Below are positions 7,210-45,961 of a DNA stretch of 64,000 nucleotides, piece after piece. Each line of letters begins with the position of its first letter. The stretch's first letter is position 1. The notes below the pieces were generated by a model. The model did no database searches. It saw nothing but the letters and a program-made list of their open reading frames with translations, and was not told where the DNA came from. A program made the translations under genes and the position numbers. Source of the stretch: Notolepis coatsorum (lineage: Eukaryota; Chordata; Actinopteri; Aulopiformes; Paralepididae); contig OZ020592.1 of the NCBI GenBank assembly GCA_963971535.1, positions 57,603,028 to 57,667,027 of the forward strand, in the 5' to 3' direction.

Positions 7210-7434
7210 GTATACTGTTTGCCTTGGTTTTCAGTATACTGTTTGCCTTGGTTTTCAGTATACTGTTTACCTTTGTTTTAAGTATACTGTTTGCCTTTGT
7301 TTTCAGTATGGTTTGCCTTTGTTTTCAGTATGGTTTGCCTTTGTTTTCAGTATACCGTTTGCCTTGGTTTTCAGTATGGTTTGCCTTTGTTTTCAGTATA
7401 CTGTTTGCCTTTGTTTTCAGTATGGTTTGCCTTT
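7210..7434. repeat. 24-bp minisatellite, block 3
   Basis: About nine copies of the same unit, including shorter variants that lack ATACT (CAGTATGGTTTGCC). The block ends in CTTTGTT where the DIRS terminus begins. Confidence 0.9.
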
Positions 7435-7620
7435 GTTATATACTCGTACTGGCAATCGCGTCTCGCTCTTCGCCATATTGAGATATACCTCATCTCCAGT
7501 ACCTACTGTACTACATGAACGAAAACAAAGCACCCTTGCACTTGACCAGGCCCCGCCCCAGTGACCTTGTATAAGTCACCAGGCGTGGTCATACTCACCC
7601 TTCCTCTTTTTTCGTTTTCC
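7435..7620 (+). repeat. Left inverted terminal repeat of DIRS copy 1
   Basis: Starts GTTATATACTCGTACTGG and contains GCGTCTCGCTCTTCGCC. It is the reverse complement, with few changes, of the sequence ending AAC at 19604, including the stretch carrying CTTGCACTTGACCAGGCCCC. Confidence 0.88.
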
Positions 7621-15615: not shown

Positions 15616-18083
15616 TCGCGTTAAATCTCGCACAGGGCCTCGCATTTCTCCCAGGCGGCCCTGCATGGACATACGTTGGACCTTGTGTTCTCGCTTGGGT
15701 TAAGTGTTGACTCCATTTGTTCCGAAGATTTGCATGTTTCTGATCATGACTGTATAATGTTTAATCTATCATTTGAGTTGACCTTCGTGCCCGGTAAACA
15801 TGTAAAGTCCTCTCGTGTCCTTGGTAAACTCTCTGCAGAGACATTTTCCTCAGCTTTTGATCAAAGCGCGGTGCAGTCCTCACAAGCTGATGTAGACTCT
15901 CTGGTCAGCGCATTTAACTCATATTGCTCATCCATATTGGATAAAGTGGCTCCAATAAAGACGCGCCTCATTCCGTCAGTAAAACCATATCCCTGGTTAA
16001 ATGATGCCATTCGTTGTTTCAGGCGTACATGTCGGAAGGTGGAGCGTTTATGGAAATCCACTACAAGGAACTGTTAACCGATTTTAACAATATGGTCAAG
16101 GACGCGAGAGTCTCCTATTTTTCCAATCTGATTAGAACCAGTAAGCGAAATCCAAAACATTTATTTGACACCATCGCCAATATTTGTCACCCCCGCTCCC
16201 CCGGTTGTACCCATATTCTCAAACAAGGATTGTAGTGATTTCCTCTCCTTCTTTGTGAACAAGGTTGAATATGTTAGGGCCAACATCATCCCCTCCCTCA
16301 CTTTCCCTCCAACCACACCCTCCCGCCCATCAATTCTTAATGATTTCCTTCCCATCTCCCTGACGGACCTGATAAAACTAGTGGGATCTATGAAAACCTC
16401 CTCAAGCCCATTAGACATCATACCGACATGCATGCTAAAAAATGAAGGCGTACTCACCTCCATTGCTCCGTGTCTGGTTGCCATTATAAACTGCTCACTT
16501 CAAACTGGTTGTGTCCCAGTATATTTTAAACAAGCAGTTGTTCAGCCTCTCTTAAAGAAGCTAAACCTTGATCCGTCCCTCCCCAAAAATTATAGGCCCA
16601 TATCAAAATTGCCGTTCATCTAAAAAATCACTGAAAAGGTTGTTGCCATTCAAATCACTGCTGCCTTAAATGCACACTCCATTTTTGACAAATTCCAATC
16701 TGGTTTGCGTCAGAAGCATTCTACCGAAACAGCCCTCCTCAGAGTCTCAAATGACATCATGAGATCATCTGACGAGGGAAAATATTCTGTGCTGGTGCTA
16801 TTGGACTTAACTGCAGCTTTTGATACAGTCGACCACTGCATTTTGATCGAAAGGCTGAGGCAGTGGGCTGGCATCACTGGGAGTGCGCTGGACTGGTTCT
16901 CCTCCTATCTGCAAGATAGGAGTTTTTCTGTGTCTACTGGCACTTTCACATCCAAAACTGCTCCATTGTCCTGTGGCGTGCCCCAGGGTTCTGTGCTGGC
17001 TCCTACTCTATTTGCACTTTACATGCTCCCCCTGGGAGTAATCATTAGTCAATTCAAAGAGGTCTCTTATCATTTCTACGCTGACGATATCCAATTATAT
17101 GTCTCTTTCAAGCCTGAACAAACTGACAAATTATCTGCCCTCTTTGACTGCCTGACTGCTGTCAAGGATTGGATGGCAATCAACTTCCTTCAGTTAAACG
17201 CAGAAAAAAACTGAGGTTCTTATTATAGGCTCAGAAAAAGTCACCTCAGAAGTTGCCACATGCATGGGGACCCTCTCAACAAATCTGAGGCCCAAGCTCA
17301 GAAACCTTGGTGTGATCTTTGACCAGCAGATGCGCTTTGATCACCACATTAGATCTCTCACACGTACCCGTTTTTTCCATCTACGAAATATTGCCAAACT
17401 CCGATCTGTTGTGTCCCAGGTAGAGCTGGAAATGATTATTCATGCTTTTGTTTAATCCCGCCTGGACTATTGTAACTCCCTTTTCACTTGCCTCGATGCA
17501 TCCACTTTGGGCCGGCTACAAATGGTCCAAAACGCAGCCGCTAGGCTGCTGACTAGGTCCAGAAAATATTGCCACATCACTCCCATCTTAGTTTCCCTTC
17601 ACTGGCTCCCCATCAAATTCAGAATTCACTTTAAGGTTCTGGTCATCACCTATAGAGCGATCCTTGGTCAGGCACCTGCCTACATCTGCGACCTACTGCG
17701 TCCATACACCACAAACAGATCTCTCAGGTCGTCTGATCAGGGCTTGCTGGCTGTCCCCCTGTCTAGATTGAAGAAAAAAGGGGACCGAGCATTCAAAACC
17801 GTGGCCCCCAGGTTGTGGAATGCTCTGCCCTTGGACCTTAGATCTGTGGTCTCTGTAAACACTTTTAAAAAGCAGCTAAAGACTGTGCTGTTTAAACAGG
17901 CGTTTGGCGAATTATGCTCTATGTAAATCTTTTATGTCTTTTTATCTGTTTTGGCTTTTCCTGATCTTTCACGTTTTTAATAATTTTCTTTTACCATGCT
18001 GCTATCTTTTGCATTTTATTGATGTTTTTACTATGTGAAGCACTTTGTGACCCTGGTCTGTGAAAGGTGCTATATAAATAAAC

Positions 18084-19289: not shown

Positions 19290-19604
19290 CTGCTCTGCCC
19301 CATATCTCAATATGGCGAAGAGCGAGACGCGATTGCCAGTACGAGTATATAACAATGGGTACTGGCTGAGCGTCTCGCTCTTAGCGCGCCCTGAGGTCCC
19401 TTGAGGTTTTCTTTTCCTAATGGAAAACTTTTCCCGAGGAAGGGCGAGTATGACCACGCCTGGTGACTTATAGGAGGTCACTGGGGCGGGGCCTGGTCAA
19501 GTGCAAGGGTGCTTTGTTTTCATTCCTGTAGTACAGTAGGTACTGGAGATGAGGTATATCTCAATATGGCGAAGAGCGAGACGCTCAGCCAGTACTCATA
19601 TAAC
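19290..19604 (+). repeat. Internal complementary region and right ITR of DIRS copy 1
   Basis: Contains two oppositely oriented copies of the GCGAGACGC terminus. One at about 19,310-19,395 is the internal complementary region; the other ends in CATATAAC at 19,604. This pairing of termini with an internal patch is the diagnostic DIRS architecture. Confidence 0.85.
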
Positions 19605-19690
19605 GTTTTCAGTATACGGTTTGCCTTCGTTTTCAGTATACGGTTTGCCTTTGTTTTCAGTATGGTTTGCCTTTGTTTTCAGTATACTGC
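19605..19690. repeat. 24-bp minisatellite, block 4
   Basis: About three copies (GTTTTCAGTATACGGTTTGC and variants), the right-hand remnant of the array split by the DIRS element. It ends where sequence without repeats begins. Confidence 0.9.
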
Positions 19691-20110
19691 CACCTTATGG
19701 CACAACTCTTGAGCAACACATTGCTACCATCCTATTGGGCTGTCTATGACAAGCAGTATGTGTTATCTAAACATAGGGATAGGGGCAATATATCGATATT
19801 TATCTTCTGTATCATTGCATAATGGGATTTTATGACATTGTGAATTGTGACACAAAATGTATAAATCAAAGATAAAACGTACATTTCCTGATGTGGAAAT
19901 CATTTCATTTTGACACTGAAATCACCCTTCCTATTACCATGCAGTCGACAAATGGATTACTTAGCGTGATTATTCATATCGAAGCAGTTATCGTAATATG
20001 CTGTATATTGTTATAAAAAGAAATTCCTTGTCATATAGGGTATATATGCTTTTCGCCCATCCTTAGATAGGAAGCTTGGCTTTGGGTCAGTTCATGGGTC
20101 AGTTCTGTAC
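19691..20110. other. TAP2 intron 9, part: no gene seen
   Basis: A/T-rich sequence with ATATCGATAT motifs typical of decayed hAT-type repeats. I checked it for a TAP2 signature-motif/Walker-B exon on the minus strand and found none. Confidence 0.5.
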
Positions 20111-20285
20111 CTGTGTCATATTCGTTCTTCATGTGAGAGATGAAGCAGTCGGCTTTGGCCCTCCTGGCAGCCTCTCTCACCCTCTCCATAGTGCTCTCAC
20201 CCTCTCCATAGTCTTTCAGCCCATACGCGATGTTGTAACTTACTGACCCGGAAAACAACACAGGATCCTGGGATACCAGGGCGAC
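20111..20285 (-). CDS. tap2: tap2 exon 9 (Q-loop)
   Basis: 175 bp, acceptor AATGGCAG, donor GACACAG/GTACAG. It encodes VALVSQDPVLFSGSVSYNIA with the Q-loop Gln. It is 15 bp longer than the human exon because of a local duplication (DYGEGESTMERV). Confidence 0.94.
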
Positions 20286-23200
20286 CTGCCATTTGGAGAA
20301 AGATGAGGGTGTTTGGTCTAAAAACAACACAATACATACAGTAGTGCAAACTAACCACATTTTAACACATGTTTAATGTATGGCCTGCCTTACAGAATAC
20401 GGCTGGTGTTAATCAACCCCGATTAACTACTAGGGGTGGTAATCACCAGAGGCCCCACGATATGACATTATCACGTTATTAAAGATATATTGCGATTTAT
20501 TACTTTTTTCCAATTGCAAATGATGTCCCCAGCGGAAAACATTGTTAACTCATTCAGCGCCAGGGGTCGCTGTTTACCTTCTGGGTAGAATGCCATCGCT
20601 GTAAGTCAATGGGGAGACTGCAAAACTTGCGAGTGCTTAAAATATATGAAATATTGAAGATGACCGTTTATCATGAGCATTTAGCAGGGGTGGGCAAGAT
20701 TACATGTTTAATATTACTATTTAGTAGGGATGACAATCTTATATTATCACCAGTTAAAATCTAGTCACGTTTGATGATCAAGATAGTTTACTTGCGACTG
20801 ATAAGTTCACATTTATAACATTTCTTTTTAATCTTTTTTTTTTATCCACTTTTTCTCCATCTTTTCTGTTTTTCTCCCATCACAATTTAGTCGTGCCAAT
20901 TACCCCCTCCCCTGTCTTGATGGTTGCTCGCATGTCGTTGAAGAATCCATCGCATGTCCCCTCCGATACATGCGGGGTCAGCCAGCCACATCTTTTCACC
21001 CGCCAGCGCGGACTCTCATTGGCGAGGTGTAACATGTGGGAGGCTCACACTACCCTCGTCATCTCCTGTCCTTGCTGTGCAGGCGCCCTGATCGACATGT
21101 AGGAGTCGCTGTTTACAACGACCAGATTACCACCCATCGACTTCCCTCCCGCTGACTCTGCCAATTGAGCCAGTATGACGGCAGGCCAAGCCGGAGGCAA
21201 CGCTGACAGCCGGATTCGATCATTTCTTTTTTATCTTGTAGGCTTATACTTTCGTCAAAGACTACTTTATTCTTACCAATTGGGATTTACTGTTATTGTT
21301 TCACCATTACTTGCAAACTAGTGTGATACATATCGTGAATCATGATAATGTCGGAAAATATGGTGATATGCTATATTAGTCATCATCGCCAAGCCCTACA
21401 AGTTAGCCTACTCTACCTTTTGGTGAAGGTACTTGTGCTGGTAGTGGTGTAGGGGCCGTCCATCCAGCAGGATCTGTCCCTCCTGAGGCTCGTATAGCCT
21501 CTTCAGCAGCTGGACGCAGGAGGACTTCCCACCACCAGAGGGCCCCACCAGCGCCGTGATCTTACCTGGTTGCAGCTCCAGAGACACCGCCTGGTGCAGA
21601 AGAATTAATAACAGTGTTGGGATCATTACATTTATATATATCGCTGCTGGCGGAACAAAACCTCCTAACTCCATTTTTTTTTTTTTTTATCAACTCAGTA
21701 GATCATCCTCCATGTGTGTGTGGTTTTACAAAGTCTACACAATGGGAAAGCATTAAACCAATCATCGGTCTAAACCTCGTAACTCTATTCGCCCTCAAAT
21801 CTGTGTTCGTTTTTTCATCTGCTGAAAAGTTGGGTTTTTGGAGTTATGAGGTTTTGTCCCGCCAGCAGCGATATAATATATATATATATAAAAAGAAATA
21901 ACAATAATATAATATTCAGTTGTACTTCTCATTGCTGAAAAATATTTTCCTGTAATGCATTATTTTTCCCCAAAACTGGTTAATATACACTCCCACCAGG
22001 GATACCGTTGATGGTAAACAAAATTGTGTTCCACCAATAAAAGTGTAATATTAAAAGCAAGTATTTTTGTGTGGTGTGGTCAACCACTAACCTTCAGCGC
22101 TGGTTTATCGGGGGTTGAGGGGTAGGAGAAGGTGACATTATCGAAAGTAACTCTTCCCTCCAGCTTCTCAGGAACGAAGTCTCCTGTCTCTTGACATCTT
22201 GGTTTCCTGTCCAGGAAGTTGAACACATTGGCGATGACACCGACCGTGCTCACCATATCTCCAATACCAAACATAATCTCCTGAGGGGAGGGGGTCAATA
22301 ACAGATCTTTATCAAAAACTTCATCATAGACAGTAGGGAAGGATGAAATACTGGTATCAAAAAGGGTTGTGCGATTAATCGAGGTTCAATTTCAATTATG
22401 ATTTTGGCTTCCCGCAATCATGAAAACATGATAATCGGGATAAAAAGCTCTCATTATGCTCTAATTTTGTCTTGTGTTGTAAATACAGCACATCCTTCCT
22501 TTACAGCACTGTACTCCGCCCCTCCCCCCAAACAGTAGTTTCAGCTCGTGTTGAGAGGGAGGAGGGAGCCACGGCGCGTTTCTCTAGTTATTTTGAAACG
22601 TCTTTGGTAACTTGTAGAAGATTACAGAAAGGCAGCCTTTGGTCAAGTTGTCGTCATATGTTCTCAACTCAATGAGTAATCGTGTTTAATAAATTGTGAT
22701 TTCAATATCAATACAAATAATGGTGATTATGATTTTTGCCATAATTGAGCAGCCCTAGTATCAGATATTGGGTCAATAACAGACTGAATCAGTGCATCAG
22801 TATCGTTGATACCAAGAGTAACATGCGGTTTGGTTTTCTTGCTTTCCCACACAATTATCTTAGAGGAGGATGAGTGAATGGATTACATTTCCATAATTAA
22901 TATCCAATGGTCGCAAACTACTGGTTTACATCAATATTTTTCAGTTAAAGTAATGGATCAAAACAAATCTGCTGATACTAAGGGGCAGTTCACCCAAACA
23001 AACAACATACATACTTACCAAGAGTAATATCTATCCATTCAGATAGTTTCTGTGTGATTAGCTTAATTTGAGATATCTACTGTAGAGATATCTGCCATCA
23101 CTCCAATACAATGGAGCTAAAGGCACTCGGCTTGTGATTAGATTAGAAAACTTTATTGTCATTCTACAGCAGGGCTATTATGTTTGGCTCAACATACACC

Positions 23201-26200
23201 TGTGAATCCAGTTTCTCTCACATGAATGCCATTAAAACAAGCAACGTGCCTCCTTGACAAATGAGCATTTGCATCACTGTTTGCGGGTAGCCCTCACTTC
23301 CTATGAACCCTCTTTCTCTGCCATTGCCCAGTCAAAGAAGTGCAATCGCTCTCATTAGATGTGTGTATGTAGGCTAGGCCTGTCTGCCCCCCACCCCCCT
23401 GATGTTTGAGAGTTAAGAGTGGACAATAAGTGCTAATAAGATGCTGTGATTTGCTGTTGTTGCACAGACATGAAGCACTTTTTCATAAGCTCAGCTGCAC
23501 TATAATGTGTTTTTTTGTTCAAGTGTTGATGTTAGAATGTTCAGATGCACATCATGCACTTGTTTGTTTTTTATTTTATTTTTATATTGAAATGTTGAAG
23601 AGGAGATGTTGCAGTTGTTGCACAGTCATAAATGAAGCACTTTCTGCAGGAGATGTTGCAGATGTGGCACATAAATGAAGCACTTTTTTTGAAAAGTATA
23701 CTAATTTTGCAATGTAGTTAAATAAAAGTTGTGAAAATGTGGTTGCGTGTTGTGTCAAGTGTACATATATTCATAGCACGGGGAGGCGCCGTGGCAGTCC
23801 GGCCCCTGGCCCCTTGGGTTTCTGACAATGTGGCCCCCTGAACAATTTAGTTGAATAGCCCTGTTCTACAGGATACAACGAAATTAGGAGTGCTACAGTA
23901 CTCCTGATGTGGTGCTCAAAGCACCAAAAGAATACATTTGGAAAACTCAAAAGTAAAGTCCCTTTCCAGAAATCATGACCCAGTTACTCAAGATAATCCA
24001 CAGACCTTGTTGTGTCATGTAGGAACTATTTTCTACCGAAGTACACCCCTATAATAATGAATGGTGGTTTTATTTTGGGTGAATTGCCCCTTTAAAGCTT
24101 AGTAATTATTAGTAAGTAAATTTTAACATATATATATTATAATAATCAGTGCATCCTTATGAATGAATGAAGGTCATTCATAAAGTAGAGTGTCTATTTC
24201 ACAGCTCGAATACAAATGTATACAAAGTGTAACCTACAGTATCCTGGTTTCATAATGTGAATGTCTCACCTTCATATTGACCATCATAGGTTTCTGATAG
24301 AGGACTAAGGTCAGAAAGCTGCCTATGGTGAGTTGTCCGGAAGAGAGGAGGCTGCGGCCCTGGTACAACATGGCCACCTTCACCCCCAGACTCACCACCT
24401 ACATGGGAAGAGTTAGAGGAACGGAGAAATTTGTTTCAGTATGCTGCTAATGATTAATTAAGTAATAGATTCATCCAACCATTATTTTATCGATACATCT
24501 AAATGATTCATTACTATTAGAAACAACTCGGACCATTGAACAATTACATTTAAAAGAATACGCCAACATTATGGGAAATGCGCTCACCGTTTTCTCCAGA
24601 GTCAGACGTGAAGATAGATACCAATTTCCTTTCTGTGTGTTCAGTAGAAAGCTATCCGGCTGCAAGCTAGCCTAGCTTAGCACAAATTAATGGAAGCAGA
24701 TAAGGACCACTAGCCTAGCTTAAAACTCTGAGAGAGGTGTTTTTGGCCAACAGCTAGACTCCCTGATCCGGCTTGCTGAAAACTGTCCTGTTTAATAACA
24801 TCTCTCTTTTTGGAAAAACTATTTATTAAAACGAATTAAATAAAAACAACTAATTATCCATTAGAGAGTCATGCTGCTGTAATCTCACCCTCCGAATCAG
24901 CAGGTAGACCGCACTGAAGATGCTCTTCTCCCATTTGACATTGTACATCTGCTCCAGTGTGTCACTATATCTCTTCAGTTCTTCCTCCTCTCCTTTGAAG
25001 CTGCGAACGGTCGTGATTCCAGCAAAGGTTTGGGTCGCCAGCTCTTTAGCCTTAGCCTGGCTGTCTTGCATCTTGTTTTTATACTCCTGTTGATCAGAGA
25101 ATACGTTGAAACGGATCAGTAACAAGGCATATACCATGTAATTCCAGTGTTATGGGGTTCAAGTCCAGCTCGTAACTTATGTCATATAGCTCATCCCATT
25201 TCGGTCTCACATCCTTCCTGCTACTCTCAACTATACTGTCCAGTAGAACAGGAACAACCTTCCAAAAATACATTGATCACAAAGACCTAAACCAAAGAAT
25301 TTAGCCAATAATTAACAAATTAAAGAATTAACCCAATAATGTTAAGAGGGGGTTCTGGTGGGATTTGATCCCAAATCTAAATCTAAAGTGGTTCCAGGAT
25401 ACAGGGGCAGCAAACTTAAAGGCCTGTTCGGTGTGAACCTCTGGGACAGTCACAGGCGGAAAGAGGGTGTCATTTGAGAGCAAACCATACTTAGTTACAT
25501 ACACTAGATTTATGTGAGATTTACCTACAAAAGAAAGGTAAGAGGGAAGCAAACCAAGGATGGACTTGTGTTATGTGCCAATGAGTGAGTCTGCACATAT
25601 ACTAGCATATACTGTAGGTAGTGTATTGTGCTATAGGTGGTGTATTTGTTCAGGTACATTATATCTACCTGGCTCTAGGTTGTGTATTTGGTCTATGTAC
25701 AGTACCTGGCTGTAGGTGATGTATTTGGTCTATGTACCTGGCTGTAGGTGGTGTATTTGGTCTATGTACCTGGCTGTAGGTGGTGTATTTGGTCTATGTA
25801 CCTGGCTGTAGGTGGTGTACTTGGTCTATGTACCTGGCTGTAGGTGGTGTATTTGGTCCATTGATTGATTGATTGATTGATTGAAAACTTTATTAACAGA
25901 TTGCAGAATGGGTACAATACAGTACAGCTCAATACACACAATTGTTAAGGGGATGCAGACCAGAGAAAGACTTTCGTCTTGTTTACATCAGGGTCCCCCA
26001 TTTTCAATTCATCTGGACATATATGACATACATGACATACAGATAGTCAGTACTGCTACATCTATACATTTATGACATACCAGATTTGCAAATACAGTAC
26101 TGTTTGTGATACAGAAGGAGTCAGGAAAAGGGAGTATATACATTTGACGTAGAAACAAACTGTACATTGGAGGTTGGGTGGGGGGGGGTTGGGTACACTG

Positions 26201-29200
26201 GGATATTGACAACCATACTGGGTAATCTACATTGGAGGTGGTTGGTGGGGGGGGGGGGGCACACTGTATATACAAGCAAAACTGTACATTGAGGGGGGGG
26301 GGGGAGACACTGTACAAACAAACAAACTTGTACATTGGACTATTGACAAAACCATACTAGGTAAATGACTGTACATTGGAGGGGGTTGGGTTAGGATATT
26401 TACAGGGGCCAGTGTTGAATTGCAGTCTCCCGTAGGTGTCCCTTGAGAGTACAGTAACTGGCTGTAGGTGGTGTATTTGGTCTATGTACCTGGCTGTAGG
26501 TGGTGTATTTGGTCTATGTACCTGGCTGTAGGTGGTGTATTTGGTCTATGTACCTGGCTGTAGGTGGTGTACTTGGTCTATGTACCTGGCTGTAGGTGGT
26601 GTATTTGGTCCATGTACAGTACCTGGCTGTAGGTGGTGTATTTGGTCTATGTACCTGGCTGTAGGTGGTGTATTTGGTCCATGTACAGTACCTGGCTGTA
26701 GGTGGTGTATTTGGTCCATGTACAGTACCTGGCTGTAGGTGGTGTATTTTGTCTATGTACCTGGCTGTAGGTGGTGTATTTGTTCTGCAGCAGGGCCATG
26801 AGGGGCATCTCTATGCAGGTGAGCAGAGTGAGCTCCCAGGACAGGCCTAGCATGAGATACAACATGAGGCAAGTCTTCACTGTACTGCGGACCAACACGT
26901 TGGAGTTAAGGGCTACTGTACGACCCATCCTGTCCACGTCAGAGTGCAGGCGTGCAGAGAGGTTTCCTGTGAGGAGAGGTAGAAAATAAAATAAAGACTA
27001 AAAGACTAACGGTGAAGAGAAAGAGTTACTGACTACCAGTGCTTGAGCCTCACAAATACTGAGAACTCCGACAGGCCACACCTCCTGTCTGGCCAATGTA
27101 ACCTGATGTGGGTGTGGTAAAACTTTAAGAGTTTATCAGGTCTAAAACACTGTCGAATTGCAACGCTGCGTGGATGAAAACAGCCACACTTGTTGCATCA
27201 CGTGTGCAATAAGTTATTAGTTAGCAATGACAGTTCAAACTTCTGCACCAACTCTCACCAGGCTTGTTTTCGTTGAAGAAGTGCACATCTTGCTTCAGCA
27301 GATTGTGGAACAGCATGTGTTTCAACCTCTTGTTCAGTCTGGACAGAGTCCACCTGAACAGGCTGCCTCTTAAGCCAGAGCACATCGAGCTGGAGGAGAG
27401 GAAGAATACAATGTTATACATAATGTATATAAGTATCTATTAGAGATGCACTGAGCTGGAGGAGAGGAAGAATACTACCGGGTATATATATATATATATT
27501 AGAGATGCACTGCTGGAGCAGCTGGGTAGTGAGAGTATGAGTCCTGGTCGTCGCAATAGTGACTCCTACTGCTCATTCAAGGTACTGTTCAGCATGGAGG
27601 GGATCTGGGGAATGGCGTGGACCTCTGCACGCATTACGCTCTCCCAGTGAAAGTACTCACCGTCAGGTGAAAAGAAGCGGCTCCACACTCCGCAACACCA
27701 CATGTATCAGGAGAAGGCATGTGGTAGTCTACACCCTCCCCAGACCAACAGTAGGGTAGCACAACAACGACTAAATTGGGGGATGGGAGAAAAGGTCTGA
27801 CAGAGTTCATTGAAAGCATGCTTGAGAACAGGCACTTATTTGTTGAGCTAGGAGGAAATAAAAGCAGGTGGCGAAGACTCAAGAATGGCCTCCCACAGGG
27901 AAGTGTGCTTGCACCACTTCTCTTTAACACCTACGTGCAAAGCCATCTAAGACACAGGTGTGTGCCTTCCACCTGAGAAACTGTGAAGCCAAGTGCCAAC
28001 GGAAGGTCACCTGGTCAGGAACCTCCCTTGAACACTGCGAGCACCCAGTCTACCTAGGGGTAACCCTGGATAGAGCCTCTCTTTTAAGACCCACACTGAG
28101 AAGACCAAGTGCAAAGTGAGTGCGAGGAACAACATCATCCGCAAGCTCACTGGCACAACCTGGGGTGCTAACCCACAGACCCTGAAGACAACCGCACTAG
28201 CTCTCTGCTACTCAGCTGCCGAGTATGGGAGCGAGCTGCCCATGCCAAGAAGTTGGATCCTGTCCTCAATGCTAGCTGCCGCCTTATCACTGAAATCAAC
28301 ACCTACAGACTGTCTATACATCCTGGCAGGCATAGCCCCACCAGAGATACGACGAAATGCAGCAAGCAAGAAAGAGCGCCAACAGCAGTCTATTGACCAA
28401 AGACATCCTCTCTTCGGCCATGTGACAACCAAAAGCCGCCTTAAATCCAGGAAACGTTTCCTGAAGAGCGTCCCGCCCCTCGGAATACCGAGCACAAGCA
28501 GTGAAAGAGTCACTTGTGGGAAGAAAGACTTGACAACCTCTCACCAGCTACAACAATTGAGCTAAAGGCGAGCGAGGCACTGCCCCCTGGAGCAGACACC
28601 AACTATGCAGTGTGGAAATGCCTAAACAGAATAAGATCTGGTGTTGGACGTTCAAAAGCCACTCTCGCCAAATGGGGATTTCTTTTTTTTTTATCCACTT
28701 TTTCTCCCATTTTTCTATATTTTCTCCCATCCCAATTTCGTATCATCCAATTCAACCCTCCCCTGTCACGAACGCCGTTTCTTGCCTCCCACAAGCCGGC
28801 TGCAATGTGGACTAAGTCATACATAGCACAAGTCCCCTCCGGTACTTGAGGTAACAGCAGTCGCATCTTTTCACCTGCGCAGCTCGATCTCTCAGTGGCG
28901 AGGAGTAACGCGTGGGAGGCTCACGCTGCCCCCGACACTTCCTGATTCTACTGCGCAGGCGCACCAACCGACCTGTAGGAGTCGCTGTCCACAACGCCCG
29001 ATCCCCACCCATCAGTTTCCCACCCCCTAATACGGCCAATGTGTATTAGTATGAACGACCAGCTAAACTGAAAGCAATGTGGAGCGCTGGGCACGAACAG
29101 GCAAGCCCAGCGTCTCAGTCATTCGTGGCGAGCGCCTTGCCCACTACGCCACGTAGCCGCCCTGCCAAATGGGGATACTTACATGATGGGGACGTTGTGT

Positions 29201-32200
29201 GCGATTGTGGCACTGAAACACAGACCATGCAGCACCACCTGATATGCCCCCTGCTAGAACAGCCCTGCACAGCATCGGACTTGGCAGAGTTCAATGAGAA
29301 GGGACAGCAATGTGTTCAGCTGTGGTTGAGCCACATCTAGCCAAGCCTTGTAATTGACTGTCTTGTGGACACGACAAGAAGAAGAAGAGTCTACACCCTC
29401 CCTAGACCGACAGTAGGGTAGCACAACGACTAAATTGGGGGACGGGAGAAAAGGTAAAAGAATTATTTAAAGGGATGTGCCGCTATCACCATGTCACTGT
29501 CAGTACAGTTTCTGAGTATTCAACTTTAGGTATAATTAAATCCAGAGTATCAATTCCATCTAGACTTGGGACCATTCGTTTGGAGTAACTGGACAACATT
29601 TTTGATATAATCCATTTTCTCCATAAGACACATCTTTCAACATTTATAAAATTCCCCCGACTTTCCTTCTCTGGAATACACCTCTCAAAATGCTTCCAGG
29701 AATTCCAAACCCAGTGGGAACGCTGCTTTATGGGAAATTGGGAATGCTTCTAGTTCAGTGTGTCTCAACTGGTATAAGGACTGATGACCAGATGATGTAG
29801 CTACACAATGTTCCCCTATTAAAGTTGTTCTTCATTCCATTAATTATGGCCATCCTTGATCAAAGCCATTCTTACGTTTACATTTTGTCATTTAGCTGAC
29901 ACTTTTAACCAAAGCAACTTACAAGTTTTGTATGACAAGCCAGTAAGAAGGGTACAACTCTATCAGCAGAGTAACAATGTTCATCAAAGTGTTAAGACTT
30001 GAGTGCTAGTGTTGAGTGTATGAGAGTAAGAGGGTTATTATTATATTACATTTTTTAATTTCAGATATTGATTGAAGAAGTGTGTCTTCAGTCAACGGCG
30101 AAAGATTGGTCGGGTTTTGGCTGTCCTAATTGTGGTGGGAAGTTTGTTACACCATTGTGGGGCAAGGACCGAGAATAGGCGGCTTTTCTTTGATGACTCT
30201 CCCGGAGCTTGGATAGGAGTTAGTCGGGTATTGAACTGTGTGTGTATCGAGCAGAAGAGACTGTCATGAGCAGGAGACTACTGTCTGATACGGCTTGCCT
30301 TAAAATGTGCATTTGTGGTGTCAGGCAGCAGGAGACTGTCATGAGCAGGGGAGACTGTCAGCTTTAATACTGTCTGATATGGCTTGCCTTAAAATGTGCA
30401 TTGTGGTGTCAGGCAGAAGAGAAGACTGTCATGTTTTGAACTATGGATACCGAACAAAGGTTTGGGACGGCTTTGAACTGTTGAAACAGTAATCCAGAAC
30501 TATTTTATTTCACTGTAAAATATATATATATTTTTTTTATCTATTCTATAATTTTATTGCACTGCACTATTGCACTATTTTACTCTGTCTATTTTATCTT
30601 GCTCCTTTTATTATTGTCTATTTAAAACTGAATCAAACCATAAACTAGGTGGCCTGTTGGGATGTTAGATCCTAATGTGAAAAACTGTGATTTTATATGT
30701 CTGCACTTTATGTGCTCATTTTATGCTCGTCTTTTTTCTGTTGTGAAGCACTTTGAGCTGCAGTTTCTGTATGAAAGGTGCTATACAAATAAAGTTTATT
30801 ATTATTATTATTATTATTATTAGTAGTCGGAGGTGGCCAGAGGATGGGGGTTCGGGGGCATCGTCCCCTGGTAGAAAATTGTAATGATTTTAATACGCAA
30901 ATGAAGCTTTTAGGAGTATTTTGAAACTAGAATTACAGAGCGGGAGTAGATACACTACTCTTGATAGCACATATTATTGGGGGGGACAATTCATATTTTT
31001 TAAAATTTTGGGGGGGGACATGCCCCCCTCCGGGATCTGCAGCCATGGGGATGGTGGATTTTATCATATGGGGACATCATTTGTGCTGAGTGATAATGGC
31101 TAAAAATGTGCGCAAAACTGAATGTTGAAATAGCAGTTAATACCATGTTCATTGATAAAATTACACAAGGGAGGGGTGCTCCAGTAGCACATCATGTTAC
31201 CGCGCTGCGTCGCGGGACTCCGTGCTGCGTCACGGATCTGGTTGACTCCGAGTTCGATTCCCGGACTCGCCGTCATTTGCCGAATGTCTCCCCCTGCTCT
31301 CTCTCCCGTTTCACCCTACAACTGTCGGTCATGCTTGACCAGAAAAGCGATAAACGCTAAAAAATAAAGTTAAAAAAAAATAAAAAATTACACAAGGGAT
31401 GGGAAGGGGGGATGGCTGTTTTATAAGGGGGATGATATTGACCGTTTTTATTTCAGGGGGGATGCCATCCCCCCTCAACTCGAGTACTGCCTACAGTACC
31501 AGGATAGTGGAGAAGAGAAAATATTTACACGAAAGAGGGAGACAAGAACATTGATCGGTTACCTTCCAAAAGAGACAAAGGCCAGGCATCCTATTGCTTG
31601 AGAGAAGCTGGTTTGAAGGTGCTGCCCACTCAGCATATCAATAACCTTCCCCTGGTAAAATGGGATAAATGTGTCACCTGTGAACAGAGAATCAAATATT
31701 AATGATAGATTTGTTACAGATGCCTCGCCAACTGATGCCATCGTTGTCAGGTGAAAATTGGGTTGAACCACAATTAAACACCAGGGCCCCGTTCCTCGTA
31801 TGTGCCTAACTGAGTTAGCTGGATAATTTCCAGGATAACTTGACATAAGTCAGGCTTTTCGGTTCCATGAAGCAAGTTTGGCTAAATCACTATAGCAACA
31901 CATCCATAAACTTGAACCTGCTCCAGCGCAGGCTTACTTAAGTTAGCTGGATAAGCTTGCCCCTCCCTCGGAAAAGAAATGGCAGCTCCCTTCCTCAGAG
32001 ATCTCATTATACCATTCTGAATAATGTTTTTGTGCTTAGTTTTTCTAGAGGGGTCACGAGATGATTTCCAGAATGTATTGATTTCATAGAATGTGTGAAA
32101 TGGGCCTATAATTAAAAACAATTAAAAAAAATACATTAAACTGGTAAAAGAAACACTTTTGAAATAATAGACTTAAAATGCTGAGAATAAATCATATTCA

Positions 32201-34967
32201 GCCTATGGATTTACTTTGTCCTACATAATGCACATCATAGCTACGGTGCGCATGACAGTTTGAGCTGCGGGATGAGGCATGCTTGTTTCTGACGGAGAAT
32301 GCGTCCCAGCTCGCTGCACACCTCCTATGCCGACTGGATAACAAGGCTAGCATATTTGTCTTGCATATTTGCTCAAATTAATGGACTTAATCTGTCACTA
32401 CAAGGTGAAAACACAACCATCCTGTCGTTCAATGATAAAATACAAGCGTTCACGAGAAACTCGAGCGCTGGAGTAGAAACGGGCGGATTTATGTTTCCAG
32501 AGCTTGATGAATTTATGGAGGAAAATTAACTGAGTGTGAACACAGTGAAGATGTCTATAACTCGCCTCCAAGCCCTTCTTGAACGGTTTAAAAAGTTTTT
32601 CCCCGATGAACTCAAGTGACTGAACCTTAAAAACAGTGTTTCAGTCCAAGTTCTGGATATCAATTGAGGGAGAATACGCACAGCTATCCGGCATTTGGAT
32701 CTACCTACCTATGCGAAAAAACATTCTCTGCACTGGCTTATATAAAAAATAATTACAGATCACGTCTGAATGTGGAGGATGATTTCCGAGTCGCTGTCTC
32801 CTAAATTAAACCCAGACTGGACTTGTTGTGCTCCAAGCATAGTGGCCATCCATCTCATTAGGTGAGTTGAACATTAGCCTTCTAAATGAAATGCGCTTAT
32901 GTATTAATTTTATGGTTGTTTGATTATTGTGTTATTTTGTGTAGTTATTGTGCATGTTAAAAGCCTCCAATGCTTATTAGTGCGTGTGCGTGTGAACGTT
33001 TGCATGTTTCAACCACCTCCTATAATAGTGGGGGTCGTGACTCTCTGATACCGTTATTTCGGGGGTCGCGGCCTGAAAACGTTGGGAACCCCTGATCTAC
33101 ACATACATGTATTTATATATTACATGATACCTAAGCGCATACAGTACATACTGTATATCCTCATAAATATCTATTAATTCGTATCAATTAGATACTCTTT
33201 GGGCTTGTTTTTATCTACTTATTCTGAAAGAGTTGAAATAATTATTTTCGCTAGTAAGATCTCATTCGATGATTCATTCCATTAAGCCTACTGCCAGCAA
33301 TATAATCTGATTGATTGGGGGAATGCGGCACTTAAAATTAGCCTATACATTTTCCCAACACTTACGCATTTAACTTGTCTGTGATATTTTCCCGTTCTAA
33401 AATCATGGTTTCGGTGACCATGACGCTTCCCCCTTTTGAAGTAGGACAGGCAAGCGCAATTATTCTGATTACTGAAGTCTGGTTCGAATTAACAAGATTG
33501 TTTGAGCGCGAATCAGCCTTTGAGAAACCGAGATAGCCTGACATCAATCATTGGGTTAATTTAAGCTGGCTAATAGGACATTTGATCGGCTTAGTTGAAC
33601 CACGTACGTCATATGAGGAACGTGGCCCAGGTCGTAAAACTATATATGCGCATCAAGAACTGAATCCCACCCTACCCCCACTTCTGCACTTGATTTTGCA
33701 CTGCTGTCAATGTTTACAATGCTATTTGCAGCTCCATTACATTATTCTACCTCATTTAACGCAAGTCTGCAAATATGATATTTGTGTGTTCCTTTTATTT
33801 ATATCCACATATCTTTAGCCCTGCTGTGTTTTTATCTGTATTTATCTGATGTTATGCATGTCCCCCCTTTTGCAGTGTTGGTGAAGCCGCAGCCCTCCTT
33901 TCGTTTTCATATGTGCCAGCGCATTGTGTTAATGACAAATAAAAGTGAATTGATTCATCGAGTTTCAATATCAATGAAAATAATCGAGAAAAAACTATTA
34001 TTGGTATTTCAGCTTGTATTGAGAGGGAGGAGGGAGCCACGGTTCATCCAGTTACTTTGAAACATTTTTGGGAACTTGTAGATGACAGAAAGGCAGCCTT
34101 TGGTCGAGAAGAAAGGTAAAACTAATTCAGTCGTCGTCATATGATGTTCTCAAATCCATGATTAATCATCTTTAATAATTGTGATTTCAATATCAATTAA
34201 CATAATCGCGATTATGATTTTTGCCAAAATCAAGCAACCCTAATCTGCCATCGGCACTGTTAGTACAAGAGTTTGAGTATGAGACTACTTTGACTGCAAA
34301 TAAATTTAATTGGCTGGTGATATTCTGTATCCACTGTGATATTCTGTATCCACTGTGATATTCTGTATCCGCTGTGATATTCTGGTGATATTCTGTATCC
34401 ATGGTGGCCACACATTTATATGCTTTATGATCAACACTCACAGATGACTGCTAGGATGAGGGAAACAAAGGCTCCAATCAGGTGGAAGACGTCTGGTCTG
34501 AAGTATCTCACCATCCTCATTAACAGTGCCCTGGTATCCAGCTTCTTCTTGCCCTCCTTCGTCCCTCCAACATCGGGGAAGACCGCTTCAAACGCCCCAC
34601 AGGCCACTGTAGAGAACACCAGGGCCAAGAGCACCATGGCAGGATCGGGGAACGGTCCTCGGTCACTGGGGGGGGGTCTCTGCTCCGTGATGAGCGCTCG
34701 TCCACTCTCAAACGCGGGGAGCAGGGTGCAGAGAAGCACCACCCACCTGTGGTGCACAGGCTGGGGCTTCCCGTCAGTCAATATAAAAGTGAGTGAGTGG
34801 AGAAACACCCATCTCACTGCCCCAATGACCCACACACCTGCTAGTCCTCCACAACTGGTGCATTCAAACAGCCCAAGGAATATGTACAGCGCCAACCACA
34901 ACACTGTATCACAGAGAATGAGAATGCCACATGTTTTCATTCCCGGCATTGTCCTCAGGTAGACCAT
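20111..34967 (-). CDS. tap2: TAP2, antigen peptide transporter 2 (exons 1-9, 3' end outside window)
   Basis: ABC half-transporter of the endoplasmic reticulum that, with TAP1, pumps proteasome-derived peptides to MHC class I. Nine exons with GT-AG borders join without a frame break into 614 codons. Exon sizes 115, 131, 206, 198, 129, 189 and 174 bp (exons 2-8) equal those I recall for human TAP2; exon 9 is 175 bp instead of 160. The N-terminal multi-span region is in exon 1 (residues 1-175). Exons 2-6 form the transmembrane core with the intracellular-loop segment TFAGITTVRSFKGEE. The nucleotide-binding domain starts in exon 7; Walker A is GPSGGGKSS (residues about 514-522), and the Q-loop is LVSQDPVLF (Gln about 562). 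The signature motif, Walker B and H-loop, which belong to exons 10-11, are absent from the window. The start at 34967 is the first ATG; ATGs at codons 7 and 10 are alternatives. TAP1 and ABCB9 are less likely because exon 1 is short and the sequence fits TAP2. Confidence 0.93.
20286..20829. other. TAP2 intron 8, left part: repeat remnants only
   Basis: A/T-rich sequence with the MITE-like start TAGGGGTGGTAATCACCAG at about 20,431. No second end was found. Nothing coding is seen. Confidence 0.4.
20830..21225 (-). mobile_element. tRNA-derived SINE, copy A
   Basis: In the plus strand it starts with a poly-T, TTTATCCACTTTTTCTCC, and ends in an Arg-tRNA-like B box on the minus strand (GATCGAATCCGGC). 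It belongs to the same family as 28,679-29,163 and 47,617-48,060, judged by shared segments such as ATCTTTTCACC and AGGAGTCGCTGT. Confidence 0.75.
21417..21590 (-). CDS. tap2: tap2 exon 8 (Walker A)
   Basis: 174 bp, acceptor GCACCAG, donor AAAAG/GTAGAG. Walker A is GPSGGGKSS (about 21,519-21,545), with the nucleotide-binding Lys and Ser present, then LLKRLYEPQEGQILLDGRPL. Confidence 0.95.
21633..21880. mobile_element. MITE with about 38-bp terminal inverted repeats
   Basis: TATCGCTGCTGGCGGAACAA at the left is mirrored by GTCCCGCCAGCAGCGATATA at the right, and the inner ends CCTAACTCCA / GGAGTTATGAGG also pair. The flanks are TA-rich. No ORF is present. The superfamily is not resolved. Confidence 0.8.
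22092..22280 (-). CDS. tap2: tap2 exon 7
   Basis: 189 bp, acceptor CCCCTCAG, donor GAAG/GTTAGT. It encodes the linker to the nucleotide-binding domain (VIANVFNFLDRKP) and its first strand, including VTFDNVTFSYPSTPD with the aromatic A-loop Tyr. Confidence 0.94.
22362..22757. mobile_element. hAT MITE, imperfect 8-bp TSD
   Basis: Ends AAGGGTTGTGCGATTAATC and GAGCAGCCCTA form diverged inverted repeats. GTATCAAA (22354-22361) and GTATCAGA (22758-22765) are a 7/8 target duplication. It lies in intron 6. Confidence 0.75.
23170..23863. mobile_element. hAT MITE, 8-bp TSD TTCTACAG
   Basis: CAGGGCTATT and AATAGCCCTG are perfect inverted ends, and TTCTACAG flanks the unit at 23162-23169 and 23864-23871. 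It is 694 bp in intron 6. It interrupts an older repeat whose halves read AAAACTTTATTGTCATTCTACAG and GATACAACGAAATTAGG. Confidence 0.92.
24270..24398 (-). CDS. tap2: tap2 exon 6
   Basis: 129 bp, phase 0, acceptor CATGTAG, donor GAAG/GTGAGAC. It encodes VVSLGVKVAMLYQGRSLL and the last core helix (IGSFLTFVLYQ). Confidence 0.93.
24540..24760. repeat. Interspersed fish-type repeat in intron 5
   Basis: Contains ACGCCAACATTATGGGAAAT and CTAGCCTAGCTTAGCAC, segments I recognise from a repeat common in teleosts. Boundaries and family are not established. Confidence 0.45.
24889..25086 (-). CDS. tap2: tap2 exon 5
   Basis: 198 bp, phase 0 at both ends, acceptor ACAG, donor GGAGG/GTGAGA. It encodes the long cytosolic loop with KAKELATQTFAGITTVRSFK and ends in the membrane segment AVYLLIRRV. 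Confidence 0.94.
25600..26790. repeat. 32-bp minisatellite built from the tap2 exon-4 splice donor
   Basis: Repeat unit (plus strand) CTGGCTGTAGGTGGTGTATT followed by TGGTCTATGTAC, with 37-bp variants containing ACAGTAC. On the tap2 strand each unit is the last 20 bases of exon 4 ending in CAG, then a GTACATAGAC donor. The true exon end is at 26,761; about 9 copies lie beside it and about 7-8 more at 25,600-25,857. The two blocks are separated by a LINE 3' end. Confidence 0.9.
25858..26453 (-). mobile_element. 5'-truncated LINE copy (3' end only)
   Basis: Reverse orientation. It opens on the plus strand with (TTGA)n and AAAACTTTATTAACAGATTG, and continues into the G/C-rich 3' UTR shared with the longer copy at 35,515-36,717. 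It interrupts the splice-donor minisatellite. Confidence 0.85.
26761..26966 (-). CDS. tap2: tap2 exon 4
   Basis: 206 bp, acceptor CACAG, donor AGCCAG/GTACAT. It encodes NLSARLHSDVDRM and two membrane helices (MLYLMLGLSWELTLLTCIEM). Its last 20 bases and the donor are the unit of the minisatellite that follows. Confidence 0.93.
27259..27389 (-). CDS. tap2: tap2 exon 3
   Basis: 131 bp, acceptor CCTCTCCAG and donor CCTG/GTGAG. It encodes CSGLRGSLFRWTLSRLNKRL and the start of a cytosolic helix (LLKQDVHFFNENKPG), typical of the TAP family. Confidence 0.93.
27797..29340 (+). pseudogene. Jockey-like LINE reverse transcriptase C-terminal half
   Basis: Shows NGLPQGSVLAPLLFN of the reverse transcriptase, then a break. 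Next come IRKLTGTTWGANPQ, CYSAAEY and ILAGIAPPEIRRNA in another frame, and finally CDCGTETQTMQHHLICPLL, a Cys-rich terminus, ending in a stop at 29,338-29,340. This matches the C-terminal part of jockey-like proteins often annotated in fish. Several frame changes and an internal SINE show it is inactive. Confidence 0.8.
28679..29163 (-). mobile_element. tRNA-derived SINE, copy B, TSD GCCAAATGGGGA
   Basis: Inserted in the LINE fragment. GCCAAATGGGGA occurs at 28,667-28,678 and 29,164-29,175. Poly-T is at the left, and a tRNA-like head with the B box lies at the right (minus strand). Confidence 0.88.
29456..30510. other. Intron 2: unassigned sequence
   Basis: No gene is seen. TTGTCATTTAGCTGACACTT near 29,885 resembles a common fish interspersed repeat. 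Two near copies of CTGTCATGAGCAGG...GGCTTGCCTTAAAATGTGCAT lie at about 30,260-30,320 and 30,335-30,402, a local tandem duplication. Confidence 0.4.
30510..30835 (+). mobile_element. L2-like LINE 3' end
   Basis: Ends GAAAGGTGCTATACAAATAAA followed by (ATT)n, the canonical L2-type 3' terminus. It is 5'-truncated. The segment TGGCCTGTTGGGATGTTAGA recurs inverted near 56,560. Confidence 0.75.
31160..31387 (+). mobile_element. tRNA-derived SINE, other family
   Basis: Begins GGGGTGCTCCAGTAGCAC, has a B box GAGTTCGATTCCCGG at about 31,250, and ends in an A-rich tail after AATAAAGTT. It lies in intron 2, antisense to tap2. Confidence 0.7.
31563..31677 (-). CDS. tap2: tap2 exon 2
   Basis: 115 bp, acceptor TTCACAG and donor GGAAG/GTAACC. 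It begins in TFIPFYQGKVIDML, the conserved loop after the first core helix. The codon spanning exons 1-2 gives Cys where human TAP2 has Gly. Confidence 0.92.
31785..32280. other. Intron 1: MITE-like remnants
   Basis: Contains CAGGGCCCCGTTCCTCGTA and two GTTAGCTGGATAA motifs, resembling decayed PIF/Harbinger-type elements of fish. The second terminus was not located. Confidence 0.35.
32285..33100 (+). pseudogene. hAT transposase fragment (ZBED5/GTF2IRD2-like), degenerate
   Basis: Fragments LAYLSCIFAQINGLNLSLQG (32,335-32,400) and, after frame breaks, SRLNVEDDFRVAVS (about 32,760-32,805). The second is the C-terminal dimerisation region of hAT transposases of the ZBED5/GTF2IRD2 type. The end resembles GTTGGGAACCCCTG, a hAT-like terminus at about 33,080-33,094. 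It is multiply broken and lies in tap2 intron 1, antisense. Confidence 0.7.
33100..33930. other. Intron 1: no gene recognised
   Basis: A/T-rich sequence without a convincing ORF, repeat border or splice-supported exon. Confidence 0.4.
33930..34245. repeat. Decayed hAT MITE copy
   Basis: Shares GAGAGGGAGGAGGGAGCCACG and AGAAAGGCAGCCTTTGGTC with the MITE at 22,362-22,757 and ends in CAAGCAACCCTAA. The left end is ragged. Confidence 0.65.
34442..34967 (-). CDS. tap2: tap2 exon 1 (first coding exon)
   Basis: Encodes residues 1-175 plus one base. It is rich in hydrophobic helices (ILILCDTVLWLALYIFLG, WVVLLCTLLPAF, MVLLALVFSTVACGAF, FHLIGAFVSLILAVIC), the extra N-terminal membrane segments that bind tapasin in TAP proteins. 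The donor is ATCT/GTGAGT. An acceptor-like CACACCTCCAG lies 1 nt before the ATG, so a 5' untranslated exon may be spliced here. Confidence 0.92.
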
Positions 34968-35514: not shown

Positions 35515-36717
35515 TCGGAGGTGGGAAGTTGGAAGAGAGAAAGGCGTCGTCTCAGACCTACTTGTAGCATAACTCTTCGGTTCAAATAACAAACTCAGCA
35601 AGGCCGACGGCTTCTCAGTTACAGTGGGTGACAATATTGTCACAAGGAAAGATGAAATTACATACCTAGGTTCCATCCTAGAGGCAAATCTTTCCTGTGA
35701 CAAAATGGCATCCAATGTAATAAAAAAATCAACCAACGAACTAGATTCTTGTACCGGATTTCCTCTCTGGTAAACAAGAATACCCTGAAGACTCTGGCAG
35801 GAGCACTCATTCAAGGGTACTACGACTATGCGTGCACCTCATGGTACCAAAGCACCTCAAAGGCGCTAAAAACAAAATTACAAACATCACAAAACAAACT
35901 GGTCAGACTACTGCTTGACCTTACTCCTAGAACCCACCTCACCCCTGCCCACTTTGACAACCTAGGATGGCTTAGAGTAGACGACAGAGTACAGCAACTT
36001 GCAATGGGCCTGGTCTACAAGATACACTTCACGACTAAGGTACCCATGTACATGTCAAAATACTTCCAAAAGGTCAGTGAATAACACGACCACAACACCA
36101 GAGGGAGCTCCACAAATCATGTTAAACCCAGATTCGGCTCAAACAAGGGACAAAACACGTTTCGCAATTATGCCACATCAATGTGGAACGCCCTACCCAC
36201 AGCTGTAAAGGAATGTGAATCACTACCCACTTTTAAAACCACTTTCAAGGAGCACCTACGGGAGACTGCAATTCAAAACTGGCCCCTGTAAATGTCCTAA
36301 CCCAACCCCCTCCAATGTACAGTAAATGTCCTAACCCAGTAATGCACGAGACCCTTCTTGGGGACCAATAAGGTTTTGTTAATATTCCAATGTACAGTCG
36401 TCGTCGTCGTCCCCCCCCCCCCCCCACCGCCAATGTAAAAAAAAATCGTCAAATGTATATACTCTTTTTTTTCCCACTCTTTTGGTATCACAAACAGTAC
36501 TGTATTTGTAAATCTGGTATGTCATAAATGTATAGATGTAGCAGTACTGTCTATCTGTATGTCATGTTGTTATGATGAATTGAAAATGGGGGACCCTGAT
36601 GTAAACAAGACGAAAGTATTTCTCTGGTCTGCATCCCCTTAACAATTGTGTGTATTGAGCTGTACTGTATTGTACCCATTCTGCAATCTGTTAATAAAAT
36701 GTTCAATCAATCAATTG
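35515..36717 (+). mobile_element. 5'-truncated LINE with (TCAA)n 3' tail
   Basis: Encodes the C-terminal part of a non-LTR reverse transcriptase: TYLGSILEANLSC, then CTSWYQSTSKALKTKL and DRVQQLAMGLVYKI. It is broken by a frame change at about 36,080, then NALPTAVKECESLP. The 3' UTR is repeat-rich and ends CTGCAATCTGTTAATAAAAT followed by TCAATCAATCAA. It is the longest copy in the window of the LINE whose short 3' ends recur from 25.8 to 60.9 kb. Confidence 0.85.
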
Positions 36718-38855: not shown

Positions 38856-38864
38856 ACAGGCCCT

Positions 38865-38929
38865 GATTGATTGATTGAAAACTTTATTAACAGATTGCAG
38901 AATGGGTACAGTGACCGTGACAGGCCCGA

Positions 38930-38967
<38 letters not shown>

Positions 38968-39130
38968 AACTTTATTAACAGATTGCAGAATGGGTACAGT
39001 GACGTCACAGGCCCGGATTGATTGATTGATTGATTGATTGAAAACTTTATTAACAGATTGCAGAATGGGTAGCGACGTCACATGCCCGGATTGATTGAAA
39101 ACTTTATTAACAGATTGCAGAATGGGTATA
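38865..39130 (-). repeat. Tandem array of LINE 3' ends, reverse orientation
   Basis: Four copies of (ATTG)n-AAAACTTTATTAACAGATTG-CAGAATGGGT separated by short GACGTCACAGGCCCG-type spacers. Each copy is only about 45 bp of LINE 3' end. Confidence 0.9.
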
Positions 39131-40990: not shown

Positions 40991-41400
40991 CTCAATCACT
41001 CAATCAATCCGGGCCTGTGACGTCACTGTACCCATTCTGCAATCTGTTAATAAAGTTTTCAATCAATCAATCAATCAATCCGGGCCTGTGACGTCACTGT
41101 ACCCATTCTGCAATCTGTTAATAAAGTTTTCAATCAATCAATCAATCAATCATTCAATCAATCAATCAATCAATCCGGGCCTGTCACGGTCACTGTACCC
41201 ATTCTGCAATCTGTTAATAAAGTTTTCAATCAATCAATCAATCAATCAATCCGGGCCTGTCACGGTCACTGTACCCATTCTGCAATCTGTTAATAAAGTT
41301 TTCAATCAATCAATCAATCAATCAAACAATCAATCAATCGGTCACTGTACCCATTCTACAATCTGTTAATAAAGTTTTCAATCAATCAATCAATCAATCC
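40991..41400 (+). repeat. Tandem array of LINE 3' ends, forward orientation
   Basis: Five copies of ACCCATTCTGCAATCTGTTA-ATAAAGTTTTC-(AATC)n, preceded by CCGGGCCTGTGACGTCA or CCGGGCCTGTCACGGTC. It mirrors the reverse array at 38,865-39,130. Confidence 0.9.
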
Positions 41401-44976: not shown

Positions 44977-45961
44977 CGGGGGACCCCGACAGAAAGGGCC
45001 GGCCTGATACGGAGAGAGCGGCCATCACCCCTGGTGACATAGGCTCCCCCGCTGAGCACCTTCCCGGCATAGACTGCTGAGGACAGCCTGCTCTGCAGCT
45101 GGACATGCAAGGTGTGTGGTCCCCACGCTGCCCGATAGGGTGAGTCCCTACACACCGTAGCCCTGTAGTGATATTACTACCACCAAAATCACGCGTGCCT
45201 GACTGACCACTGCCGGTCTGTCTGTCGGGGGAGGCACTAACGTAATACCCGGCCTGGCGAGGGCGGGGCTGGGGGAACCCACACTGAGACCTCCTGGGCC
45301 TAGAGTTCCCCATCTGACAAAAACATTTTGATACAGGGAACCCTGTTCCGTCGACAGACACAACACCAGGCTCACCAAACACAGACGCAGGACGTGTGGT
45401 GTGGGAGCCGCTTGACAGCACAGCATTCTCATAGACAGAACCAGGCCTAGCTAGCAACTGGGTGTCAGCCCCTGTCTCCATGATAAGCGAAATGTGGGGC
45501 CGCTTGCGCTTCACTGGAAGAACGCAGCCCGCAGCCAAAGGGGACAAATCAGAGCCCTGTGTCCCGTAGTGTAGCGGGGGGGAGTAACCGGAGAGCGTGC
45601 TAGACACAGCTAGAGGGCAACGTTTTTTTAGGGCGTGCCCATCTAATGTAGCCGATCCCTCGGCCGCCGAGGCTGTCGGCCTTGTGATCACCTGTTTTCT
45701 TTGTGCCCAGGGTATCTCAGGCGGGGGAAACATGGCCGCTGGCCGGGGGCCTCGCTGCAGCCGCTGGCGAGGCCGTGCTCTCACCTCTGGCTGCGCGGTT
45801 TGGGGCTGTGTGGAGCCCAGGTCAAATACTGCCCACGCCCCTGCGGACAGACCAAAAAGTCCATCTGCGGAGATGGGAGCCCTGAGGAGGGGAAGTCTCC
45901 TCTCCTCCTCAATGGGAGATTGCTCCAACCAAAGATGCCTGTGAACAAGCGTTGACAGCAT
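44950..45961 (-). pseudogene. DIRS copy 2 polyprotein N-terminal region
   Basis: An ORF in another frame (44,219-45,961) carries the Pro/Arg-rich region upstream of the reverse transcriptase (VRARPRQRLQRGPRPAAMFP, SATLDGHALKKR). It matches copy 1 at 8200-8400. It changes frame near 44,950, so the polyprotein is discontinuous. Confidence 0.7.

Follow-up and report, generated by a model that had tools for sequence, protein, structure and literature searches.

Splice donors within tandem repeats

A minisatellite in human IFI6 (6-16, G1P3), an interferon-induced immune gene, reportedly supplies multiple splice donors, as stated in the title of a 1995 paper by Turri, Cuin and Porter. Its repeat is presumably 12 bp and thus in frame, and we take the array to include the gene's normal donor. 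Two downstream repeat units of IFI6 are reported to serve as donors, giving rise to three mRNA species (PMC4526556). A similar arrangement is described here for tap2 of the fish Notolepis coatsorum, in a 64,000-nucleotide stretch of contig OZ020592.1 (assembly GCA_963971535.1; positions 57,603,028 to 57,667,027 of the forward strand), referred to as the window. On the minus strand of the window, the end of tap2 exon 4 heads a minisatellite whose unit copies the exon–intron junction itself, and intron 4 holds 14 further junctions with a GT donor, termed decoys below. In both genes a tandem unit supplies the 5′ splice site. Unlike the tap2 decoys, which are putative, the downstream units of IFI6 are reported as used; the tap2 units measure 32 or 37 bp, and 13 of the 14 decoys would break the protein. 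The splice-donor minisatellite is a kind already known from IFI6, from which tap2 differs in unit length, frame effects, gene and lineage; tap2 would be a further immune gene, beside IFI6, with this arrangement.

Human UBC and VCX3A are reported to carry AGGT splice sites of dual specificity arranged in tandem, and the authors of that study suggest that such expansions may do less harm since they can be spliced out (PMC10809524). As in these genes, a repeat has expanded at a splice site in tap2, with AG|GT at the unit boundaries of the tandem array. The UBC repeats are coding and their sites act as both 5′ and 3′ splice sites, whereas the tap2 array is intronic and has poor acceptor features. 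In the potato RdRp (RNA-dependent RNA polymerase) gene, as in tap2, tandem copying across an exon–intron boundary yielded extra splice signals. This was reportedly a single duplication over the intron 1/exon 2 boundary that produced a new intron, in contrast with the many donor-boundary copies in tap2, which give no sign of a new acceptor. Competition between two donors in intron 4 of DOK7, where SRSF1 shifts the choice and the intron-proximal, stronger site is preferred, has also been reported (PMC5585400).

A literature search for a minisatellite in a TAP2 intron returned nothing on point by title; subscription papers lay mostly outside its reach, so unpublished status is not implied. In brook charr, a minisatellite of the MH class II beta gene is said, in the title of a 2010 paper by Croisetiere et al., to modulate expression by temperature and length. 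The likeness to tap2, drawn from that title, lies in a fish major histocompatibility complex (MHC) gene with a minisatellite in cis whose length is said to matter. The tap2 locus offers a natural experiment on how the spliceosome chooses one 5′ splice site from as many as fifteen that are nearly identical, in which errors are exposed by their out-of-frame costs. If the decoys are used, the minisatellite would set the amount of TAP2, and hence the capacity of a fish for class I peptide loading, and the length of the array could readily be typed as an immune variant.

Anatomy of the junction array

The exon that carries the repeat was identified as tap2 exon 4 (26761..26966, minus strand; 206 bases) by tblastn with three fish TAP2 proteins. 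'Antigen peptide transporter 2' gave its top matches among solved structures, and Pfam assigned it to ABC_membrane. Exon 4 ends in AAATACACCACCTACAGCCAG and is followed by the intron start GTACATAGAC, and this junction recurs within intron 4 (25087..26760, minus strand; 1674 bases). An initial annotation of the window had proposed that the repeat unit joins the exon end to the intron start as a complete junction, with the functional exon end at 26,761 as the first array member. Unit-by-unit reading and Tandem Repeats Finder (TRF) bear out both points: the unit comprises approximately 20 exon bases, the last of exon 4 being copy 1, and approximately 12 intron bases.

Downstream of exon 4, 15 additional copies end in CAG, of which 14 continue with GT and one (26458) with TT. 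Part A of the array (26458..26760, minus strand) comprises nine units of 32 or 37 bp, with copies ending in CAG at 26729, 26692, 26655, 26623, 26586, 26554, 26522, 26490 and 26458, the first eight followed by GT and the last by TT. Part B (25669..25861, minus strand) comprises the remainder of an interrupted 37-bp unit and five further units, with six donors at 25834, 25802, 25770, 25738, 25706 and 25669. A degenerate last copy without CAG (25627..25647, minus strand) has 4 mismatches against the 21-base core. Counting this copy and the exon copy, the total is 17, in agreement with the annotated figure of about 17 repeats. The two unit lengths that had been noted are also present: the 32-bp unit consists of GTACATAGACC and the exon part, and the 37-bp unit of GTACTGTACATGGACC and the exon part. 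TRF reported two rows with a period of 32 and 90% matches, one at 26454-26786 (9.9 copies) and one at 25662-25858 (6.0 copies).

The head-to-tail repeat thus carries a GT donor in its unit, with CAG|GT kept in 14 of the 15 non-exon copies and AGGT at the same fraction of unit boundaries, copy 26458 being the exception. In the window, the closest non-array match to the 31-base junction carries 12 mismatches, which excludes a chance origin of the copies. A five-unit block, consisting of a 37-bp unit, a 32-bp unit with an A-to-G change and three further 32-bp units, is present twice in succession; the array therefore grew by block duplication and turns over.

The array had been annotated at 25600..26790. 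Repeat units do occupy that interval, but they are split by a dispersed repeat of 587 bp (25862..26448, minus strand), which ends in AATAAAGTTTT followed by (TCAA)n. This insert lies inside a 37-bp unit, with TTACTGTAC closing one side of the unit and ATGGACC restarting the other, and the array is therefore older than the insertion. Parts of the insert match 36,241-36,323 (94%) and 36,412-36,715 (88%), and 15 sites in the window match its end, TTAATAAAGTTTTCAATCAATC, at ≤3 mismatches, its own site included. Judged by eye from its tail, the insert resembles the tail of a long interspersed nuclear element (LINE); Pfam identified no LINE family in the reading frame before the 36-kb copy or in the frame after the array. 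A fragment of a LINE-like frame, also recognised by eye and without a Pfam match, lies beyond the array in intron 4 (25328-25570, minus strand). At 38864-39128 and 41027-41399, the insert end (AATAAAGTTTT with TCAA repeats) recurs in tandem beside 9-bp minisatellites.

Local identity and strength of the donors

The true exon-4 donor (26752..26763, minus strand) reads CAG|GTACATAGA, with A at position +5. The 14 GT decoys fall into three classes: nine CAG|GTACAT, four CAG|GTACTG and one CAG|GTAGAT. The row of decoy donors that had been annotated accordingly stands for 14 of 15 copies, but its members are unequal, and copy 26458 has TT in place of GT. Over −3 to +10, nine of the 14 decoys have the same sequence as the true donor at 26761, and seven do so over −20 to +10, so local sequence cannot separate the matching decoys from this donor, which is itself a member of the array.

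With a position weight matrix of donor base frequencies, the true donor scored 1.99 and ranked sixth among the nine tap2 donors. Nine decoys likewise scored 1.99, four scored 0.64 and one scored 2.58. The decoys stand out by copying the exon side too, not by donor score. Predicted duplexes with U1 gave −7.1 kcal/mol for the true donor and the nine identical decoys, and −8.0 kcal/mol for the four GTACTG decoys and for 25,669. These energies are not relied on: for the four GTACTG decoys they run counter to the matrix ranking, and the best register found is not always the splice register.

Predicted consequences of decoy use

Each GT decoy was joined to exon 5 in silico. A premature stop resulted for 13 of the 14, lying in exon 5 for decoys 26,729 and 26,655 and within the retained array for the other 11. 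The frame of exon 4 stays open past the exon over 26650..26760 (minus strand), up to a stop at 26647-26649 that closes the open reading frame 26647..26997, and decoys 26729, 26692 and 26655 lie inside this extension. Decoy 26,692 would add 69 bases, keeping the frame open and adding 23 residues. The annotated expectation that decoys usually truncate TAP2 thus agrees with 13 of the 14 cases, and the stricter proposition that all of them do so was rejected on account of 26,692.

The 23 extra residues would follow a position aligned with approximately residue 315 of TAP2 in 9n63_B. Judged by ABC exporters in general, this site would lie close to a coupling helix, where a transmembrane helix extends into the cytosol. 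The added residues would probably disturb TAP2 function.

Comparison with other fish and origin of the array

Among the matches listed (120 of 3478), 119 of the 120 proteins lack an insertion at the exon 4/5 junction. The gene model of Scortum barcoo (P0106) has 24 added residues there, unrelated to the repeat in the window and perhaps an annotation artefact. A query of exon 4 with its read-through retrieved 38 related proteins, of which P0155, having no intron read-through, was excluded from the count. In the remaining 37, which are related and not independent, no repeat of the exon end was found by eye in the intron-4 read-throughs, each covering one frame and a few to approximately 100 residues, so that an array farther into the intron is possible. 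Proteins P0148, P0149 and P0151 show KVGV at the end of exon 4 and, without a change of frame, again approximately 35 residues on, which may be a second donor copy or chance.

All 37 read-throughs begin with Val, the codon that opens with the intronic GT, and the next residue is Gly in 27, Ser in 7, Arg in 2 and Cys in 1. Since Gly, Arg and Cys require it, G at +5 is certain in 30 of the 37, and the 7 with Ser fit if the codon is AGY; all 37 are compatible with G. In the window, the second intron codon is CAT (His), giving A at +5. The exon end is homologous to other fish TAP2s and the 37 read-throughs show no such repeat by eye, which argues for copying from exon to intron. On the simplest reading of these sequences, the end of exon 4 would have given rise to the array within the lineage of this fish.

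Viral contigs, from which entries for the window's own genome may be missing, held no match to an exact 25-base junction pattern; exon 4 gave 35 pattern matches there, none of them a relative.

The tap2 gene model

Exons 1–9 were positioned with the same three fish proteins, all on the minus strand. Exon 1 (34442..34949) was placed by tblastn and its donor, its start being set at a Met aligned with other fish; a further in-frame Met lies upstream. Exons 2 (31563..31677), 3 (27259..27389), 8 (21417..21590) and 9 (20111..20285) rest on tblastn, splice borders and the joined frame, and exons 5 (24889..25086), 6 (24270..24398) and 7 (22092..22280) on tblastn and the joined frame. Joined together, exons 1–9 form 608 stop-free codons, with AG before exons 2–9 and GT after exons 1–9. 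The nearest TAP2 protein among the matches listed is 72% identical. A tree built from the window and 29 fish proteins, weak and with low support at some nodes, places the window between the salmonid, smelt and galaxiid fishes and Polymixia. Within exon 9 (20112-20288), the five residues YGEGE have no counterpart in the three aligned fish TAP2s.

Exon 9 is the last exon found in the window. With the three fish proteins, tblastn recovered no match in the window to residues 603-709 of Centroberyx TAP2. A profile of 105 C-terminal fish pieces, run at full sensitivity in six frames for the C-terminal ~107 residues, gave a best E of 9.9; in the same search, a control profile for exon 9 recovered that exon at 8.9e-27. 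The 20,110 bases of the window beyond exon 9 contain a reverse transcriptase frame, further retroelement-like frames (by eye) and minisatellites. Either intron 9 exceeds 20 kb, as the abundant repeats in this stretch would permit, or the tap2 copy is truncated.

Use or neglect of the decoy donors

It is proposed that, in the lineage of this fish, the tap2 junction of exon 4 and intron 4 was copied in tandem to build the minisatellite, and that block duplication later reshuffled the array and a dispersed repeat split it. Since nine decoys cannot be told from the weak true donor by their local sequence, we infer that the spliceosome must use position and exon context, which would favour 26,761 imperfectly. 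A minority of pre-mRNAs would then use decoys. Nearly all of these would carry a premature stop and be degraded, and the decoy at +69 would yield a TAP2 with 23 added residues in the cytosolic extension of its membrane domain. The array would probably reduce tap2 output slightly. A young minisatellite derived from the junction, spliced somewhat leakily and tolerated as near-neutral baggage rather than kept as an evolved switch, is the most likely reading, with about an even chance of being correct.

Several observations weigh against this proposal. Among the 821 GT sites in 20,001-34,500, 50 score ≥1.99: true donors account for 6 of these and array sites for 10, and the remaining 34 include 4 in intron 4. 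Because those 34 sites outside the array score at least as high as the true donor, sites of this strength are presumably mostly silent. The lack of G at +5 is shared by four of the nine tap2 donors (exons 2, 4, 8 and 9), so a weak donor is not peculiar to exon 4. Where identical donors are duplicated, splicing often prefers the intron-proximal copy, which would predict heavy use of the decoys unless exon context outweighs this preference. RNA structure that would conceal the decoys was considered as well and none was seen in part A: predicted folding of 26,440-26,800 was no better than that of 100 shuffles (z −0.27).

A variant of the leaky-splicing proposal, whose small share of probability is counted within it, is a self-cleaning buffer in which a pre-mRNA spliced at a distal decoy is then recut from the true donor to the AG of that decoy, restoring exactly the normal end of exon 4. 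Such recutting is conceivable because CAG|GT stands at all boundaries except one. The acceptor features of the 16 copies comprise 7–9 pyrimidines in 17 and no yTnAy within 40 upstream bases. At the true acceptors there are 10–15 in 17 (seven of eight scored, exon 7 left out), and exon 3 also has no yTnAy. The buffer is regarded as very unlikely, and it is equally doubtful that such redundancy allowed A at +5, with many weak, interchangeable junctions replacing one strong donor.

Alternatively, the array may be an inert intronic minisatellite, with 26,761 the sole donor used and exon 4 defined by its own acceptor and exon signals, so that the decoys are ignored. Exon 4 is ordinary at 206 bases, the open frame of exons 1–9 would permit a normal TAP2 if the last exons exist, 34 sites outside the array score as high in the 14.5 kb scanned, and 13 of the 14 decoys would be costly if used. 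However, nine decoys repeat the true donor over −3 to +10 and seven over −20 to +10, so that the exon context has been copied too, and the nearest decoy lies only 32 bases away. Together with the use of downstream units reported for IFI6, this makes complete neglect of the decoys possible but rather doubtful. The opposite extreme, in which array length sets the share of unproductive tap2 mRNA and thus MHC class I peptide supply, varying among individuals as the initial annotation had suggested, draws on the premature stops from 13 of the 14 decoys, on block duplication, which makes length variation plausible, and on the length-dependent modulation claimed in the title of the brook charr paper. 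Its basis is, however, one assembled sequence, and it is considered improbable.

If this tap2 copy were 3′-truncated or a pseudogene, both the array and the weak donor could be tolerated. The last ~107 residues of TAP2 were not found despite the 20,110 bases beyond exon 9, and position +5 of the exon-4 donor is A, whereas the relatives are compatible with G there. Yet exons 1–9 are open over 608 codons, with AG and GT at the internal borders and GT after exon 9, and the missing exons may sit past the window edge after an intron longer than 20 kb; decay of the gene has little likelihood. A collapsed or mis-joined repeat in the assembly is extremely unlikely, as the orderly differences between units (two unit types, a common A-to-G variant and an insert within one unit) are unexpected of a mis-join.

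Other features of the window

A family of 24-bp minisatellites, judged by eye to be the same, occurs at 156-1275, 5283-5359, 7208-7437 and 19604-19687, the largest with 46 copies. At 2688-3893 there are acidic reading frames that include a coding repeat of 84 bp, and Pfam gave no match for 3054-3890. A retroelement frame with DUF1759 (Pfam) is found at 59016-60803 (minus strand), and Pfam also identified reverse transcriptase frames at 42919-45024 (minus strand), 53624-55552 (plus strand) and 16624-17211 (plus strand).

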